Below, in pieces: positions 2,511-51,534 of a DNA stretch of 64,000 bases. Origin of the DNA: Pseudomonas maumuensis (GTDB lineage: Bacteria; Pseudomonadota; Gammaproteobacteria; Pseudomonadales; Pseudomonadaceae); assembly GCF_019139675.1 (NCBI RefSeq), contig NZ_CP077077.1, forward strand, positions 1,922,001 to 1,986,000. Reading direction: 5' to 3'. Below the pieces are notes generated by a model that was not told where the DNA came from, made no database searches, and worked only from the letters and a program-made list of their open reading frames with translations. The translations under genes and the position numbers were made by a program. Numbering within the stretch: position 1 is the stretch's first letter; each line of letters starts with the position of its first letter.

Positions 2511-2633
2511 TCACCGCGGAACGTCCGCCGGACCGGATCACATGGGAAAACCCGGGGTCAACGGTCACAGGTGGTGCGGCGCCAGTAATGGCGCAGCGCC
2601 GAAGCGCAGTACCTAACGAAGACGGTAAAAAGC

Positions 2634-3800
2634 ATGAATCTTCACGAGTATCAGGGTAAGCAGCTGTTCGCTGAATACGGCCTGCCAGTTTCCAAGGGTT
2701 TCGCAGTCGACACCCCTGAAGCTGCAGCAGAAGCCTGCGACAAGATCGGCGGTTCCGAGTGGGTTGTAAAAGCCCAGGTTCACGCTGGTGGTCGCGGTAA
2801 AGCGGGCGGCGTCAAGCTGGTTCGCAGCAAGGAAGACGCCAAGGCGTTCGCTGCCCAGTGGCTTGGCAAGAACCTGGTTACCTACCAGACCGACGCCAAT
2901 GGTCAGCCAGTTTCCAAGATCCTGGTCGAATCCTGCACTGACATCGCCAAAGAGCTGTACCTGGGCGCTGTAGTCGATCGTTCGAGCCGCCGCATCGTGT
3001 TCATGGCTTCCACCGAAGGTGGCGTGGACATCGAGAAAGTCGCTCACGACACTCCTGAGAAGATCCTCAAGGCCACCATCGATCCGCTGGTCGGCGCTCA
3101 GCCGTTCCAGGGTCGCGAGCTGGCGTTCCAGCTGGGCCTGGAAGGCAAGCAAGTTCAACAGTTCGCCAAGATCTTCGTAGGCCTGGCCAAGCTGTTCAAG
3201 GATCACGATCTGGCCCTGCTGGAAGTGAACCCGCTGGTGATCAAGGCCGATGGCGATCTGCACTGCCTCGATGCCAAGATCAACATCGACGCCAACGCCA
3301 TGTACCGTCAGCCTAAGCTGAAGACCTTCCACGACCCGTCGCAGGACGACGCCCGTGAAGCCCACGCCGCCAAGTTCGAACTGAACTACGTTGCCCTCGA
3401 AGGCAACATCGGCTGCATGGTCAACGGTGCCGGCCTGGCCATGGGTACCATGGACATCGTCAACCTGCACGGCGGCAAGCCTGCCAACTTCCTCGACGTT
3501 GGCGGCGGCGCTACCAAAGAGCGCGTTACCGAAGCGTTCAAGATCATTCTGTCGGACAGCAATGTCGCGGCCGTACTGGTCAACATCTTCGGCGGCATCG
3601 TTCGCTGCGACATGATTGCCGAAGGCATCATCGGTGCGGTGAAAGAAGTCGGCGTCAAGGTTCCGGTTGTCGTTCGCCTTGAAGGCAACAACGCCGAACT
3701 GGGCGCTAAAGTACTGGCAGAAAGCGGTTTGAACATCATTGCGGCAACCAGCCTGACCGACGCTGCTCAACAAGTTGTCAAAGCTGCGGAGGGCAAGTAA
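2634..3800 (+). CDS. sucC: Succinyl-CoA synthetase (ADP-forming), beta subunit
   Basis: The 388-residue beta subunit carries the ATP-grasp nucleotide-binding domain and the CoA-ligase domain, and with SucD makes ATP from succinyl-CoA in the TCA cycle. The start [20 protein letters not shown], the ATP-grasp segment [18 protein letters not shown] (about residues 45-62), the metal/nucleotide segment LEVNPLV (about 199-205) and the C-terminal [13 protein letters not shown] (about 322-334) are all family hallmarks. Its stop codon shares one base with the sucD start (TAATG), so the two subunits are translationally coupled. The ribosome site is weak for so highly expressed a gene. Confidence 0.97.
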
Positions 3801-4684
3801 TGAGCGTCCTGATCAATAAAGACACCAAAGTCATCTGCCAGGGCTTCACCGGCTCGCAGGGTACTTTCCACTCCGAACAAGCCATCGCCTACGGCACCAA
3901 GATGGTCGGCGGCGTTACCCCAGGCAAGGGTGGCACCACCCACCTGGGCCTGCCGGTGTTCAACACCGTGAAAGAAGCCGTAGAGGCCACCGGCGCTGAC
4001 GCGTCGGTCATCTACGTACCGGCTCCTTTCTGCAAGGACTCGATCCTGGAAGCCGCCTTCGGTGGCATCAAGCTGATCGTCTGCATCACCGAGGGTATCC
4101 CTACCCTCGACATGCTGGACGCCAAGGTCAAGTGCGACGAGCTGGGCGTGACCCTGATCGGCCCGAACTGCCCAGGCGTGATCACTCCGGGCGAGTGCAA
4201 GATCGGCATCATGCCAGGTCACATCCACCTGCCAGGCAAGGTCGGTATCGTTTCGCGTTCCGGAACCCTGACCTACGAAGCTGTCAAGCAGACCACCGAC
4301 GCCGGCTTCGGCCAGTCGACCTGCGTCGGCATCGGCGGTGACCCGATCCCGGGCTCCAACTTCATCGATATCCTGAAGCTGTTCCAGGAAGATCCGAAGA
4401 CCGAAGCGATCGTCATGATCGGTGAGATCGGCGGTTCCGCTGAGGAAGAAGCCGCGGCCTACATCAAGGCCAACGTGACCAAGCCTGTCGTTTCCTACAT
4501 CGCCGGTGTTACCGCACCAGCGGGCAAGCGCATGGGCCACGCTGGCGCCATCATCTCTGGTGGCAAGGGTACCGCGGACGAGAAGTTCGCCGCCCTGCAG
4601 GACGCTGGTGTTAAGACCGTGCGTTCCCTGGCTGACATCGGCAAGGCCCTGGCCGAGCTGACTGGCTGGGAAGTCAAGAAGTAA
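3800..4684 (+). CDS. sucD: Succinyl-CoA synthetase, alpha subunit
   Basis: The 294-residue alpha subunit binds CoA through an N-terminal Rossmann domain and carries the phosphorylated active-site histidine. [29 protein letters not shown] is the CoA-binding N-terminus, GPNCPGVI lies mid-protein, and the phospho-histidine is His247 in MGHAGAI. Length matches other SucD proteins closely. It is the last gene of the suc operon, overlaps sucC by one base, and is followed by a strong Rho-independent terminator. Confidence 0.97.
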
Positions 4685-28776: not shown

Positions 28777-29838
28777 ATGCTGATCCATGGTAGTCAGATT
28801 TTCCAGTACCAGCCCAACCCAGTCAGCGACCAGCCCGATCCAGGTATTGTTGGTAAGGCGCAGGTGATACCCGTTACTACCTCGCCAGAGGCCCATCGTT
28901 TGGCCACGCGAACAGAACCTAGCTCAGGTAAGGGTTTGCTCCACCACCTGAAAGTATCCATAGTCGAGCCGCTGAAGGAGTTACTCCAATGGTTGTTCAG
29001 TCGTCTCGGTAGAGGCGATGATGCTCAGGCCCTGCCGGAGGATCGACCCATGCAGCACGCCGAGCCGGCTGGCCACGCAGCACATTTCGCCCGTAGTTCT
29101 GGTAATGGCTTCAAGAGCGTGCTGAATACAGTAAGCCTGCTCACGACTTCCTCAAAAGTTGATCAAGAGCTCTTCGATGTAACGCTAAACGCCGAGCAGA
29201 TTAACGCCTTGCAAGACGCCATCGTCGATGGCCGTGCGGATTTTACGACAATTGAGAGGATGGTAAAGACCCGTGGGGACTTGCAACTGGTCCGCACCCT
29301 CGCGTTGAGTTTGACTCACGATGCGGGCTCTCATAAGCCTTCAGTCAAGGCGGCACTAGCGAACTTGGCCACCCAGCGTCCAAATACAGGCGCTTTTCTA
29401 GGTGGGCTGCTGGCATTCGTACACGAACAGGAAAGCCGTTGGTTCGAAAAAGCCAGTAATTCTAAGGTTGTAATGGATGCTGAAGCGCAAAGTAGCTTCA
29501 TTATCGAAGGGTTTCAGGAACATATAACTAAACTGGGTGCTGACGAGGCGCATAAGATACTAGAGCACCTAGAAGGTCATTTCGGTCAGCGGGTACATGA
29601 GGTTATGGGAGCAGCCACCATGCTAGTGGGAGAGGCCGATGATGACGATGAGCTTCTGTGCCGTCTGACCCGCGCTGACGTCGTGGCTGACAAGCTGGTC
29701 AGTTTACTTCGCGCGAAGCTTGATATGCCCGATATTGATAAGCAGTTCAAAATCACTCGTAATCATAGCCCCAACCTCAACGAGTTTAACCCTCTGGAGT
29801 TGGCTGCATTAGTGAGCCTCGGTGTGAAGTTGCAATAG
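28777..29838 (+). CDS. Orphan protein of unknown function, low GC
   Basis: I recognise no family in this 353-residue, apparently cytosolic protein. The first ~50 residues are rich in Pro, Ser, Thr, Gln and poor in structure, followed by a short amphipathic stretch (LLHHLKVSIVEPLKELLQWLFSRL) and then a helical body (about 115-350) with an acidic turn EADDDDELL. There is no signal peptide or transmembrane helix. Two 60-base lines I counted inside the gene have 52% and 42% GC, far below the neighbours, and codon use includes many A/T-ending codons. A good AAGGAG site precedes the ATG. Low GC, lack of recognisable relatives and isolation suggest recent transfer. The disordered Ser/Pro/Gln-rich N-terminus resembles that of secreted effectors, which is speculation. 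No repeats or att sites flank it. Confidence 0.6.
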   Translation: MLIHGSQIFQYQPNPVSDQPDPGIVGKAQVIPVTTSPEAHRLATRTEPSSGKGLLHHLKVSIVEPLKELLQWLFSRLGRGDDAQALPEDRPMQHAEPAGHAAHFARSSGNGFKSVLNTVSLLTTSSKVDQELFDVTLNAEQINALQDAIVDGRADFTTIERMVKTRGDLQLVRTLALSLTHDAGSHKPSVKAALANLATQRPNTGAFLGGLLAFVHEQESRWFEKASNSKVVMDAEAQSSFIIEGFQEHITKLGADEAHKILEHLEGHFGQRVHEVMGAATMLVGEADDDDELLCRLTRADVVADKLVSLLRAKLDMPDIDKQFKITRNHSPNLNEFNPLELAALVSLGVKLQ

Positions 29839-30028: not shown

Positions 30029-30532
30029 TCAGGCGACCTGCACCCGTGTCTCAAGGCTGCAGTACTGCCCTTTGAAATACAGCAATGGCTGCGAAGGCGT
30101 TGTTTGCTGCAGGTTCAACGCTTTCACTTCCCCGACGACGATCAGGTGGTCGCCCGCGACGTGTTCAGCGTGGATTTCGCAATCGATCCAATGCAGGCTG
30201 CCGGCAATGATCGGATTGCCCAGCGGCGATGGCTGCCATTCAACCTGGTGCCACTTGTCCGTGCCGCGCCGCGCGAACTGGTTGGAAATTCCGATCTGCT
30301 CACCCGCCAGGATGTTGACCGCGAAGCGGCCGGCCTGGCGAATCCTGGGGTAGCTGGCCGAACTGGCCATCACGCTGAATGACACCAGTGGCGGGGACAT
30401 CGACACGCTGTAGAACGACTGGCAAGTGAAGCCGATCGGCTCGTCATCGGTGTGCGATGTAATGACCGTGATACCGGAGGCGTAGTGCCCGAGCGCTTCG
30501 CGAAAGCTCGATGGCTCGATAGGGAGTGACAT
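30029..30532 (-). CDS. Flavin reductase-like protein linked to MesD/MesX
   Basis: A 167-residue FMN-binding flavin reductase-like protein (PF01613, HpaC/NtaB type). It begins MSLPIEPSSFREALGHYASGITVIT and has TCQSFYSVSMSPPLVSFSV (flavin-binding strand), FAVNILAGEQ and FARRGTDKW, then GDHLIVVGEVKAL near the end, all family hallmarks. Such enzymes reduce free FMN with NAD(P)H for a partner monooxygenase. The start at 30532 keeps the conserved N-terminus. It lies 85 bases downstream of mesD on the same strand, which suggests it supplies reduced flavin to the MesX/MesD pair, whose activity is known to need oxygen. That link is inference. Confidence 0.85.
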   Translation of the reverse strand: MSLPIEPSSFREALGHYASGITVITSHTDDEPIGFTCQSFYSVSMSPPLVSFSVMASSASYPRIRQAGRFAVNILAGEQIGISNQFARRGTDKWHQVEWQPSPLGNPIIAGSLHWIDCEIHAEHVAGDHLIVVGEVKALNLQQTTPSQPLLYFKGQYCSLETRVQVA

Positions 30533-30617
30533 AGTAGATCCTGGGTATGGGTACCGCTCGAAGGCGTGGGAAGGCCCGCATCTGTAGGGGCCTCCACCTG
30601 TTGCCTCCGACCTGGGC

Positions 30618-31652
30618 TCAGCGCTTGTTTGCCAGTTCTCTGCGAACAATCTCCGCGCCCGCACTCAACGCATTGAGCTTGCCTCTTGCCACCTGGCGCG
30701 GCAGGGGCGCCATCCCGCAGTTGGTGCAAGGGTAGAGCTTGTCGGCGTCGACGAACTGCAGGGCCTTGCGCAGGGTATCGGCCACTTCCTCGGGTGTTTC
30801 GATGGCGTGGTTGGCGACATCGATGGCGCCAACCATCACTTTCTTGCCACGGATAAGTTCGATCAGCTCCATCGGCACGTGGGAGTTGTGGCACTCCAGC
30901 GAGACGATGTCGATGTTGGATTTCTGCAGCTTGGGGAAGGCTTCTTCGTATTGCCGCCATTCCGAGCCCAGGGTCTTTTTCCAGTCGGTGTTGGCCTTGA
31001 TGCCGTAGCCGTAGCAAATATGCACGGCGGTTTCGCACTTGAGCCCTTCGATGGCGCGCTCCAAGGTGGCCACACCCCAGTCATTGACCTCGTCGAAGAA
31101 TACGTTGAAGGCGGGTTCGTCGAACTGGATGATGTCGACACCCGCCGCTTCGAGTTCACGGGCCTCCTGGTTGAGTATCTTGGCGAACTCCCAGGCCAGT
31201 TTTTCGCGGCTTTTGTAGTGGGCGTCATACAGTGTGTCGATCATCGTCATGGGGCCTGGCAGCGCCCACTTGATGGGTTGCGAGGTTTGTTGACGCAAGA
31301 ACTTGGCGTCGTCGACGAAGACAGGCTTGCGGCGAGCAACAGCGCCTGAAACCGTCGGCACGCTCGCATCGTAGCGATCACGGATTCTGACGGTCTCGCG
31401 CTTCTCGAAATCGACACCGTCGAGGTGTTCGATAAAGGTCGTGACGAAATGCTGACGAGTCTGTTCGCCATCGCTGACGATATCGATACCGGCGTGCTGT
31501 TGCTCTTGCAAGGACAAGCGCAGCGCGTCTTGCTTGCCCTCGATCAGTTCATCACCCTCCAACTTCCATGGCGACCAGAGTTTCTCAGGCTCGGCAAGCC
31601 AGGCGGGTTTGGGCAGGCTGCCCGCAGTGGAAGTGGGTAACAGCTTTTTCAT
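30618..31652 (-). CDS. mesD: MesD-type core methionine synthase (folate-independent)
   Basis: At 344 residues this is only the catalytic C-terminal half of a cobalamin-independent methionine synthase, without the folate-binding N-terminal half of MetE. The zinc ligands are visible: His211 and Cys213 (VHICYGYG), Glu253 (LECHNSHVPM) and Cys312 (CTNCGM). It begins MKKLLPTSTAGSLPKPAW, the homocysteine-binding start of the fold. Linkage to a DUF1852 gene identifies the MesD family (Price and colleagues), which makes methionine from homocysteine in aerobic bacteria without methyl-folate or cobalamin, and needs DUF1852 and oxygen. The methyl donor is unknown. It lies 26 bases after mesX and upstream of a flavin reductase gene. 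Confidence 0.9.
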   Translation of the reverse strand: MKKLLPTSTAGSLPKPAWLAEPEKLWSPWKLEGDELIEGKQDALRLSLQEQQHAGIDIVSDGEQTRQHFVTTFIEHLDGVDFEKRETVRIRDRYDASVPTVSGAVARRKPVFVDDAKFLRQQTSQPIKWALPGPMTMIDTLYDAHYKSREKLAWEFAKILNQEARELEAAGVDIIQFDEPAFNVFFDEVNDWGVATLERAIEGLKCETAVHICYGYGIKANTDWKKTLGSEWRQYEEAFPKLQKSNIDIVSLECHNSHVPMELIELIRGKKVMVGAIDVANHAIETPEEVADTLRKALQFVDADKLYPCTNCGMAPLPRQVARGKLNALSAGAEIVRRELANKR

Positions 31653-31678
31653 ACTGGAAAACCTTGTGTCTGGTTGAG

Positions 31679-32662
31679 TCAAAGCGCGCAACGGGCAGAC
31701 CACTGCTCGAGAACCGCCTGGTAGGGCTTGATGAAATGCTCTTGCGCGAACTTCCCCTGTTCCACAGCCAGGCGGCTGCGCTCTTCGCGGTCGTAAACGA
31801 TGCGCGTCAGCGAGTAGTCTTGGTGCTGCAGGCTGGGCTGGTAGGTTTTGCCGGCGGCGGAGTTCGCGTTGTAGATTTCAGGCCGGTAGATTTTCTGGAA
31901 GGTGTCCATCGTGCTGATGGTGCTGATCAGTTCCAGGTTGCTGTAGTCGCCCAGCAGATCGCCGGCAAAATAGAACGCCAGCGGCGCGGAACTGTTGGGC
32001 GGCATGAAGTAGCGCACCTTCAAACCCATCTTCTTGAAGTACTCATCGGTCAGCGAGTATTCCGCCTGTAGGTATTCCACGCCCAGGACCGGGTGCTGAT
32101 TTTCAGTGCGGTGATAAACCTTGCTGCTCGAAACGCTCAGGCAGATGACAGGGGGCTTGCTGAAATTCTCCTTGTAGGCGCTCGAATTCACGAAGCACTT
32201 GAACAGCTTTCCGTGCAGGTCTCCGAAATCATCCGGTGTGCTGAAAGTTTGTCGATCCTTGTTGTGCCCCAGTAACAGCACGCTGAAATCGTAATCGCGC
32301 ACATACGACGAAAAATTATTGCCGACCATGCCGTCGATACGCTCGTTGGTTTCCCGATCGACCACCGTCGTTTTCAATATTTCAATCAAGGGTAGTGCAG
32401 GGGTAGTGCCTGAGAGGCCGATATCCATTTCCACTGAAATGATGTCGAGCTCGACCGTGTAGCGGTCGCCTCTGGGATTGTCCCAGTGCGCCAGGGCATT
32501 GAAGCGGTTGTCGATCATTCTCAAGGTATTGCGCAGATTTTCCTGGCGACTGCTGCCCCTCGCCAAGTTGGCAAAGTTGGTGGTGGTGCGCGTCTTGTCC
32601 GAAGGCTGATAGTGCTCATCGAAGCAAATACGTTTGAGGGTGAATGCAATCTCGTTGTTCAT
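31679..32662 (-). CDS. mesX: MesX (DUF1852), partner of MesD
   Basis: A 327-residue cytosolic protein of the DUF1852 family. It begins MNNEIAFTLKRICFDEHYQPS and contains TTNFANLARGSSRQENLRNTLRMIDNRFNALAHWDNP and DRYTVELDIISVEMDI, which I recognise as this family. By published genetics DUF1852 is required for MesD-type methionine synthesis and its biochemical role is unknown. No cofactor motif is evident to me, though conserved His and Asp residues (HWDNP, HRTENQHPVLG) could bind metal. First gene of the mesX-mesD-flavin reductase operon, transcribed away from a metR-like gene. Confidence 0.9.
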   Translation of the reverse strand: MNNEIAFTLKRICFDEHYQPSDKTRTTTNFANLARGSSRQENLRNTLRMIDNRFNALAHWDNPRGDRYTVELDIISVEMDIGLSGTTPALPLIEILKTTVVDRETNERIDGMVGNNFSSYVRDYDFSVLLLGHNKDRQTFSTPDDFGDLHGKLFKCFVNSSAYKENFSKPPVICLSVSSSKVYHRTENQHPVLGVEYLQAEYSLTDEYFKKMGLKVRYFMPPNSSAPLAFYFAGDLLGDYSNLELISTISTMDTFQKIYRPEIYNANSAAGKTYQPSLQHQDYSLTRIVYDREERSRLAVEQGKFAQEHFIKPYQAVLEQWSARCAL

Positions 32663-32804
32663 GGTGATCGTGTGCCCTGGTGTCTGAGGCGAGGCAAGAA
32701 AAAGTTCGGGTTGCTCGGTGATGGGAGCCGTCAGGCGATCGGCGATCTTTCGTCTAAACCCAAGCGGGAAAAATCGAGAGGGGCCTGTGCCAAGCTGCGC
32801 TGTG

Positions 32805-32865
32805 TCATTCGCGCAAATTCAATGAGGGGATTGTCAAAGATCAGGCTGTCATGAGACAAACTCAT
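32805..32865. promoter_or_regulatory. Candidate MetR sites and promoter in the mesX-metR gap
   Basis: Two dyads lie in the divergent gap. ATGAG-ACAAA-CTCAT (32851-32865) has the TGA-N7-TCA geometry of the E. coli MetR site TGAA-N5-TTCA. TCATT-N11-AATGA (32805-32825) is a T-N11-A LysR box. On the minus strand a perfect -35 TTGACA (32837-32832) lies between them, with no good -10, as expected of an activated mesX promoter. The first dyad would sit just upstream of the -35. Confidence 0.5.
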
Positions 32866-32894
32866 TTTTTTTGCAAACAAATGTAGTTTTTCTC

Positions 32895-33824
32895 ATGATC
32901 GATCTGAGACATCTGCGCACCATTCATGCCTTGCGCGAAACGGACAGCCTTTACGAAGCCGCCGAACGCCTGCACCTGACGCAGTCGGCGCTGTCCCACC
33001 AGTTTCGGGAGCTGGAGGAGCGCATCGGTATGCCGCTGTTCATACGCAAATCCAAGCCGGTACGCTTCACCAGCGCCGGCCTCAAGCTGCTGGAGTTGGC
33101 CGGGCAGGTACTGCCGCAGATTCGCGCCACGGAGCGTGACCTGGGCAAACTGGCTGGGGGGACGGCCGGGCGGCTGCACATCGCGATCGAGTGCCACAGT
33201 TGCTACCAATGGCTGATGCCGTCGGTGGACGAATTCCGCAGTGCCTGGCCGGAGGTTGAACTGGACCTGGCATCGGGATTCTCGTTCGCCCCGCTGCCGG
33301 CGTTGGAGCGGGGCGATCTGGATCTGGTGGTTACGTCCGACCCGGTGAAACTGCCGGGGATCACCTACGTGCCACTGTTCGGCTATGAAGCACTGCTGGC
33401 CATCGATAATCATCACGCCTTGCGTGCAAAGCCGTACCTCGAACCCGGCGACATTGCCAGCCAAACGCTGATCACTTACCCGATCGAGCGCAACCGGCTG
33501 GACATTTTCACCCGCTTCCTCGACCCGGCCGACATCGAACCGGCGCAAGTACGCACCTCGGAGCTGACGATCATGATGATGCAACTGGTGGCCAGCGGCC
33601 GCGGTGTGTGCTGCCTGCCGAACTGGGCCGTGCATGAGTACAGCTCGCGCGGTTACGTGACCACCAAGCGACTGGGAGAGAAAGGGCTGCAGGCAAAACT
33701 TTACGCGGCGGTCCGCAGCGACATGCTCGAAGTGCCTTATGTAAGCGACTTCCTGCTCACGGCAAAGGATATGTCCTTCGCGACGCTGGAAGGCGTCAAT
33801 GCTGTTTCCGGGATCGCCGTTTGA
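32895..33824 (+). CDS. metR: MetR-like LysR-type regulator
   Basis: A 309-residue LysR regulator. The N-terminal winged helix is MIDLRHLRTIHALRETDSLYEAAERLHLTQSALSHQFRELEERIG, very close in pattern to MetR, and the effector domain contains RLHIAIECHSCYQWLMPSVDEFR, also MetR-like (homocysteine is the co-effector in enterobacteria). I start it at the ATG at 32895, where homology begins; a TTG at 32871 is in frame. Divergent from mesX with two dyads between, so it likely activates the mesX-mesD operon when homocysteine accumulates. Possible paralogues elsewhere cannot be excluded. Confidence 0.87.
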   Translation: MIDLRHLRTIHALRETDSLYEAAERLHLTQSALSHQFRELEERIGMPLFIRKSKPVRFTSAGLKLLELAGQVLPQIRATERDLGKLAGGTAGRLHIAIECHSCYQWLMPSVDEFRSAWPEVELDLASGFSFAPLPALERGDLDLVVTSDPVKLPGITYVPLFGYEALLAIDNHHALRAKPYLEPGDIASQTLITYPIERNRLDIFTRFLDPADIEPAQVRTSELTIMMMQLVASGRGVCCLPNWAVHEYSSRGYVTTKRLGEKGLQAKLYAAVRSDMLEVPYVSDFLLTAKDMSFATLEGVNAVSGIAV

Positions 33825-51199: not shown

Positions 51200-51534
51200 T
51201 GTACGCGGGCTTGCCCCGCGAAGAGGGTTGGACGGTCGTTTCAAGAGGGATTACTAAGATTTTCCATATCTAGCGTAGGACATTTCCCAAGCAGCCTTTT
51301 GCGGCCTTTCAGCTGTTGTGCTGGTCAGCCGCGTTCCTTAGTCTCGCCCAGTCGTTGCCAATTCAACGACCGGGTGTGCAAGCCCGAGGATATGCTTCAA
51401 GTCGCTCTATGGCGGCTGTACGAGGGAGGCCTTCGGGCCAGCCGGGTTCCTACATCCACGGTCTTGCACACCCGCGTACAGCTGCCTCCCCCGTTCCGAG
51501 CGCAAGCGGATATCCGCAGCGCCCCTGGCTACTT
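51200..51534. repeat. Structured noncoding element with crossing complementary blocks
   Basis: The 504-base gap 51031-51534 has no convincing gene. Its right part is highly self-complementary. GTCGTTG (51351-51357) pairs with CAACGAC (51364-51370). CGGGTGTGCAAG (51371-51382) pairs perfectly with CTTGCACACCCG (51463-51474). GCTGTACG (51415-51422) pairs with CGTACAGC (51475-51482), GGGAGGC (51424-51430) with GCCTCCC (51484-51490), CGCTC (51403-51407) with GAGCG (51498-51502) and GGATAT (51388-51393) with ATATCC (51510-51515). A GGCC-TTCG-GGCC hairpin sits at 51428-51439. Blocks cross rather than nest. I believe similar sequences recur in pseudomonads, but that is memory, not a search. Confidence 0.6.

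Follow-up and report, generated by a model that had tools for sequence, protein, structure and literature searches.

Why does a gene for a flavin reductase lie beside mesX and mesD, the genes of a methionine synthase system that works without methyl-folate? The question is raised by a stretch of 64,000 nucleotides of the Pseudomonas maumuensis genome (NZ_CP077077.1, positions 1,922,001 to 1,986,000 of the forward strand; in the following called the window), in which a first-pass annotation, made from the DNA alone, had described a mesX-mesD-reductase module with a regulator gene at 30029–33824. MesD and MesX (DUF1852) were named by Price, Deutschbauer and Arkin in 2021 (PMC7857596). In relatives of the window's system both proteins are required, 5-methyl-folate and cobalamin are dispensable, activity is observed only under air, and mesD and mesX jointly rescue metE and metF mutants of Escherichia coli (PMC7857596). 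The statement of the first-pass annotation that MesD needs DUF1852 and oxygen but not methyl-folate or cobalamin agrees with these genetics. Its hypothesis that MesX is an oxygenase dependent on reduced flavin is in line with the comparative evidence given below, but it is a restatement, because the 2021 paper already noted that a putative flavin reductase is often found near mesD and mesX and predicted a flavin for MesX (PMC7857596); in Pfam the family PF08908 is named "Putative oxygenase MesX". Limited literature searches yielded no later work on the biochemistry of MesX or on the methyl donor of MesD.

The answer that we favor, with a probability of about 60%, is that MesX would set free a methyl group for MesD with the help of O2 and of reduced flavin that reaches it by diffusion, and that the reductase supplying the flavin would be interchangeable. 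To the paper of 2021 our analysis adds the variety of the reductases in the slot beside mesX and mesD, their pattern relative to Fre, the MetR-like sites and a MesX lacking a solved relative.

The mesX-mesD-reductase operon

The three genes of the operon are:

31679–32662, minus strand: mesX (DUF1852, putative oxygenase), 327 residues; PF08908 623 bits, cut-off 25, model positions 1–323 of 323
30618–31652, minus strand: mesD, core methionine synthase, 344 residues from its ATG; NF006589 equivalog 712 bits, cut-off 392
30029–30532, minus strand: flavin reductase, HsaB-like, 167 residues; PF01613 148 bits, cut-off 27

The existence of the operon is confirmed, and within its published family it is nothing unusual. 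Gene families, order and spacing are those of the first-pass annotation, the coordinates giving 26 bases between mesX and mesD and 85 bases between mesD and the start of the reductase gene. The catalytic domain of MesD is PF01717 (zinc/homocysteine), the zinc ligands His211, Cys213, Glu253 and Cys312 are present as claimed, and the claimed lack of a folate domain is borne out by the length of only 344 residues and by a PF08267 score of 20.5 bits, which is below the cut-off of 27. MesD has a close relative of solved structure, 3rpd_A (E 1.1e-206), and the best solved relative of the reductase is 3nfw_A. The top NCBIfam model of the reductase is HsaB with 188.5 bits, short of the equivalog cut-off of 230. 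The host genome additionally encodes MetH and MetE, and within the genus MesX is patchy, being found in 2 of the 19 genomes listed as own or same genus.

Reductases linked to mesX and mesD

The partner that mesX always has is mesD; the two occupied one short locus in 59/59 (1.5-kb flanks, one partial match), 80/80, 69/69 and 6/6 cases, in sets that share genomes, and this linkage exceeds chance. The linkage of the reductase is also real, but lineage-limited. It was followed mainly in the best 80 MesX loci of named genomes (1.28 Mb altogether) and in an even sampling of 398 genomes of the phylum, 44 of which have MesX (43 without the window's own). The search employed one profile built from two kinds of PF01613 reductase and one MsuE query, so that other reductase families would escape it, and reached 8 kb in the 80-locus set and 4 kb in the other sets, less at contig ends.

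In 45 of the 80 loci mesD is followed directly by a PF01613 gene of the same orientation. Of the 46 PF01613 open reading frames of both kinds in the 1.28 Mb only one does not stand beside mesD. The 45 linked genes comprise 34 of the window's type (70–84% identical to the window's) and 11 divergent ones (22–27%), and for the three of these 11 that were scanned with NCBIfam (L096, L097 and L104) the best model is RutF, below its cut-off. Four further loci (L108, L111, L125 and L128), none with a linked PF01613 gene, carry just upstream of mesX a flavin mononucleotide (FMN) reductase of the MsuE type, which belongs to another family (PF03358 in 4/4 scanned; TIGR03566 above cut-off in 3/3 scanned). 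Outside the 80-locus set a gene of the MsuE type precedes mesX in L148, L171, L173, L174, L204 and L252, the last in an added genome, and in L191 it sits between mesX and mesD. Judged by these family assignments, the reductase slot is filled in different bacteria by unrelated enzymes: HsaB-like, RutF-like and MsuE-type.

The survey of co-occurrence that the first-pass annotation had proposed thus gives a divided result: linkage in 49 of 77 testable loci among close relatives (77 rather than 80 because L079, L107 and L130 end directly after mesD), but in just 6 of 43 loci of the phylum sample (2 PF01613, 4 MsuE-type). Six genomes were added, five from the order of G196 and one from the class of G277. 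Three of them are without a local reductase; in the other three its score assigns it to the MsuE type, the divergent PF01613 kind and the window's type, once each.

Local reductases and Fre

Fre serves E. coli as its general flavin reductase. It was called where model NF005963 scored above its curated cut-off, and "without Fre" here means without a gene above that cut-off, because 59 of 60 MesX genomes carry Fre itself or weaker Fre relatives below it. Fre is present in 28 of the 60 genomes. A local reductase was found in none of these 28 and in 16 of the 32 others, the window's own included (Fisher p 4e-6). In the phylum sample alone the counts are 0/28 versus 7/16 with the window's genome (p 3e-4) and 0/28 versus 6/15 without it (p 8e-4). 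One genome of the family sample with two mesX loci, only one of which has a reductase (G416), was scored positive. The six added genomes are all under the Fre cut-off and bring the total to 0/28 versus 19/38. Among the loci assigned to the enteric, Vibrio and Alteromonas types in the named set, a local reductase was found in 0 of 13 testable ones.

In our reading MesX needs reduced flavin, no matter which enzyme provides it, and a provider of its own would have been added several times where Fre is missing. From the presence of non-orthologous reductases at one locus, together with the Fre pattern, the flavin hypothesis gains independent support. Since the exchangeable reductases belong to two families and occur so far only where Fre is absent, the flavin idea becomes genetically testable in E. 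coli.

It should be noted, however, that several observations weigh against this reading. Presence of Fre tracks lineage, which confounds the pattern. Counts were therefore also made per family, closely related genomes not being independent, and the contrast then shrinks to 0/5 versus 5/10 (p 0.10), or with the added genomes to 0/5 versus 8/14 (p 0.045). Moreover, the 16 genomes of the family sample (17 loci) were hand-picked from 28 other positives after parts of some reductases were visible. Half of the genomes without Fre are also without a local reductase, and in the phylum sample 37 of 43 loci have none of the kinds sought. In Sphingomonas koreensis the other genes whose mutants were rescued by methionine are reported to act in homocysteine synthesis or in further processes dispensable with methionine, or to be genes for which no involvement was expected (PMC7857596), and in the text of this account there is no sign of a need for a linked reductase. 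The complementation of E. coli by mesX and mesD alone fits a generic reductase and also no flavin at all. Finally, no flavoprotein fold backs the flavin idea, because MesX is without a significant solved relative. The flavin hypothesis thus loses some of its weight through the genomes in which linkage is missing and through the missing flavin fold.

Sequence of MesX and alternative explanations

Across 161 distinct MesX sequences 87 residues are invariant. The only invariant histidines and cysteine are His150, His190 and Cys174, and nine acidic residues are invariant: E16, E94, D102, D123, D125, E196, E262, D291 and E294. These residues point to side chains worth changing. In the PDB no significant relative of MesX was found by sequence or with Foldseek, and among the solved flavin monooxygenase families listed there was no Foldseek match at E<=1e-3. 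MesX is not recognizable as a member of any oxygenase family besides its own.

Of the alternatives, the one that survives best, although we consider it unlikely, is that MesX is a mononuclear non-haem iron oxygenase and that the reductase merely keeps the metal reduced or supplies electrons. His150 and His190 could form a 2-His-1-carboxylate site with one of the nine acidic residues, and the oxygen requirement (PMC7857596) would be explained as well. However, the 10 Pfam families listed for 55 MesX members at a relaxed E-value include no iron-oxygenase family, and that FMN reductases have been recruited again and again speaks for flavin.

Somewhat less probable still is that the reductase belongs to a MetR or sulfur regulon and is linked to mesX and mesD by co-regulation, not by a need of MesX. 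For this speaks that mesX and mesD are functional in E. coli without a linked reductase (PMC7857596), from which it follows that this particular reductase is not essential there, that MsuE and other FMN reductases serve in the oxidation of sulfonates and dimethyl sulfide (PMC13352529), and that most loci of the phylum sample lack the linkage. Co-regulation does not readily explain, however, why reductases of distinct lineages directly adjoin mesX and mesD, in L191 even between the two, nor why the constant partners in all 80 loci are MesX and MesD themselves.

We consider it very improbable that MesX is a coenzyme A (CoA)-binding, GNAT-like protein for which an acyl-CoA serves as the methyl source of an O2-dependent reaction. 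A second structural look gave only weak GNAT-like similarity. The GNAT profile comparison by hhalign gave a probability of 0.1, equal to the control, and the CoA motif Q/RxxGxG/A is not found in residues 107–120 of the window's MesX as read from the alignment.

Regulation

Two further features lie upstream of mesX:

32852–32864, no strand assigned: palindrome TGAGACAAACTCA, candidate MetR site between mesX and the regulator gene, motif class TGA[AG]N5[TC]TCA
32895–33824, plus strand: MetR-like regulator of the LysR family, divergent from mesX; LysR_substrate and HTH_1 above cut-off

The first-pass annotation had named the regulator MetR. It is of the LysR type and MetR is its top NCBIfam model, but the 296 bits fall short of the equivalog cut-off of 382, which is why MetR-like is the safer name. 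The motif TGA[AG]N5[TC]TCA, which was widened to fit the window's own site, is present within 300 bases before mesX in 62 of 81 loci (single-base shuffles: mean 1.4, maximum 4) and in 32 of 43 loci of the phylum sample (shuffles 0.75, maximum 5); among downstream control stretches 2 of 74 have it. The strict form TGAAN5TTCA was found in 34 of 81 loci (shuffle mean 0.48); the window is without it. The variant TGAGTTTGTCTCA is common to the window and L088, in which there is also a divergent MetR-like gene.

Cobalamin riboswitches were found in some of the 21 loci scanned: on the strand of mesX and just upstream of it in L126 (2410–2619) and L190 (3676–3874), on the opposite strand in L097, L129 and L144. 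Unlike these relatives the window has none near mesX by Rfam. The riboswitches on the mesX strand suggest direct repression by vitamin B12 in some relatives. In Acinetobacter baumannii, vitamin B12 lowered expression of the DUF1852 gene (log2 −8.3) and of the flavin reductase gene ABUW_3196 (log2 −2.5) (PMC12892962). MetR-like sites, riboswitches and this response fit a B12-sparing backup controlled by homocysteine. The sites and the response in A. baumannii are also counted in favor of the explanation that we prefer.

Proposed mechanism

We infer flavin use by MesX, the order of regulation and the methyl hand-over, and picture the sequence of events as follows. Build-up of homocysteine would probably activate the MetR-like regulator, which would then turn on mesX, mesD and the reductase gene. 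The reductase would make freely diffusing reduced FMN (or flavin adenine dinucleotide, FAD) using reduced nicotinamide adenine dinucleotide or its phosphate (NAD(P)H). With reduced flavin and O2, MesX would cleave a metabolite of central metabolism and pass the methyl group, carried on itself or on a small molecule, to MesD, where the zinc-bound homocysteine would accept it to yield methionine. Any NAD(P)H:flavin reductase might serve; in enteric bacteria and related groups this would be Fre, in others a linked enzyme of the HsaB, RutF or MsuE type.

A more far-reaching proposal, to which we would give somewhat less than even odds, is that MesX founds a structural class of its own among the enzymes using reduced flavin and O2, unrelated to known flavin monooxygenases and perhaps with a GNAT-like core, and that it removes a methyl group from some central metabolite for a zinc methionine synthase. 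Its reductase would have been recruited on several occasions from families unrelated to one another, as seen to date only in genomes lacking Fre. A methyl group that arises by oxidation, and not by reducing a C1 unit, would be novel chemistry for a core pathway that many aerobic bacteria share.

Other neighbors and features

Clustering of the neighbors (up to two per side) of 43 loci revealed no conserved third partner besides the reductase. The largest cluster consists of LysR genes (12 open reading frames); next in size are 10 frames that presumably encode a TSUP-like transporter and 5 among which some resemble short-chain dehydrogenases. Genes like phosphoenolpyruvate (PEP) mutase and MetF-like genes were considered as partners, but with 2 loci each they are too few to read. 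In L148 a PEP-mutase/methylisocitrate-lyase-like gene (3433–4293) lies near mesX and mesD inside a 2-methylcitrate cluster, and the genes at L185 1966–2889 and L190 6107–7129 (mesX counted on the plus strand) we take to be of the same kind. The genes upstream of mesX in L175 and L176, from two genomes of one genus, we assume to be MetF-like. MetF-like neighbors are odd for a system reported not to need MetF.

MesD is divergent in L125, L128, L148, L168, L185, L191 and L204 (427–454 bits when compared with that of the window, where the majority of the remaining full-length MesD reach about 640–760 bits), and five of these seven loci have a MsuE-type reductase. A second, broken MesX in two pieces was found at G082:C1:2175963–2176446, in a genome that also has an intact copy. 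MesX is also encoded on two contigs of a viral collection (L209, L210), whose viral origin is putative.

The operon of the window is adjoined by an open frame of 353 residues at 28777–29838 (plus strand), for which Pfam and NCBIfam gave no match at E<=0.01. The window further contains a sucC RNA element at 2564–2632 (plus strand, 84 bits) and, at 51338–51492 (plus strand), a C4 antisense RNA and its a1/b1 targets (61.7 and 56.5 bits). C4 RNA, an indicator of prophages or satellites of the P4 type, also occurs inside the mesX-mesD locus of L096 (10905–10989) and L103 (827–914).

Comparison with known systems

Two-component flavin-dependent monooxygenases are, for example, HpaBC, RutAF, MsuDE, SsuDE and HsaAB. 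The MesX system resembles them in that an O2-dependent enzyme has next to it a NAD(P)H:flavin reductase as a protein of its own, which seems to be replaceable from host to host. It differs from them in that MesX cannot be recognized as a member of another oxygenase family. On the side of methyl transfer, MesD shares the zinc/homocysteine catalytic domain with the C-terminal domain of MetE and with MesA, MesB and MesC; unlike these, it depends on MesX and oxygen rather than on methyl-folate or B12 (PMC7857596).

Most similar to the system of the window are the MesD/MesX systems of Acinetobacter baylyi (ACIAD3523/3524) and S. koreensis, which have the same adjacent families, the same zinc ligands and a nearby flavin reductase (PMC7857596). 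The PF01613 reductases of the Acinetobacter loci L096, L100 and L120 are, however, divergent, being 24–26% identical to the HsaB-like one of the window (that of L096 matches RutF best). The window differs from the A. baylyi and S. koreensis system also in its divergent MetR-like gene and in a host that has MetH and MetE besides.
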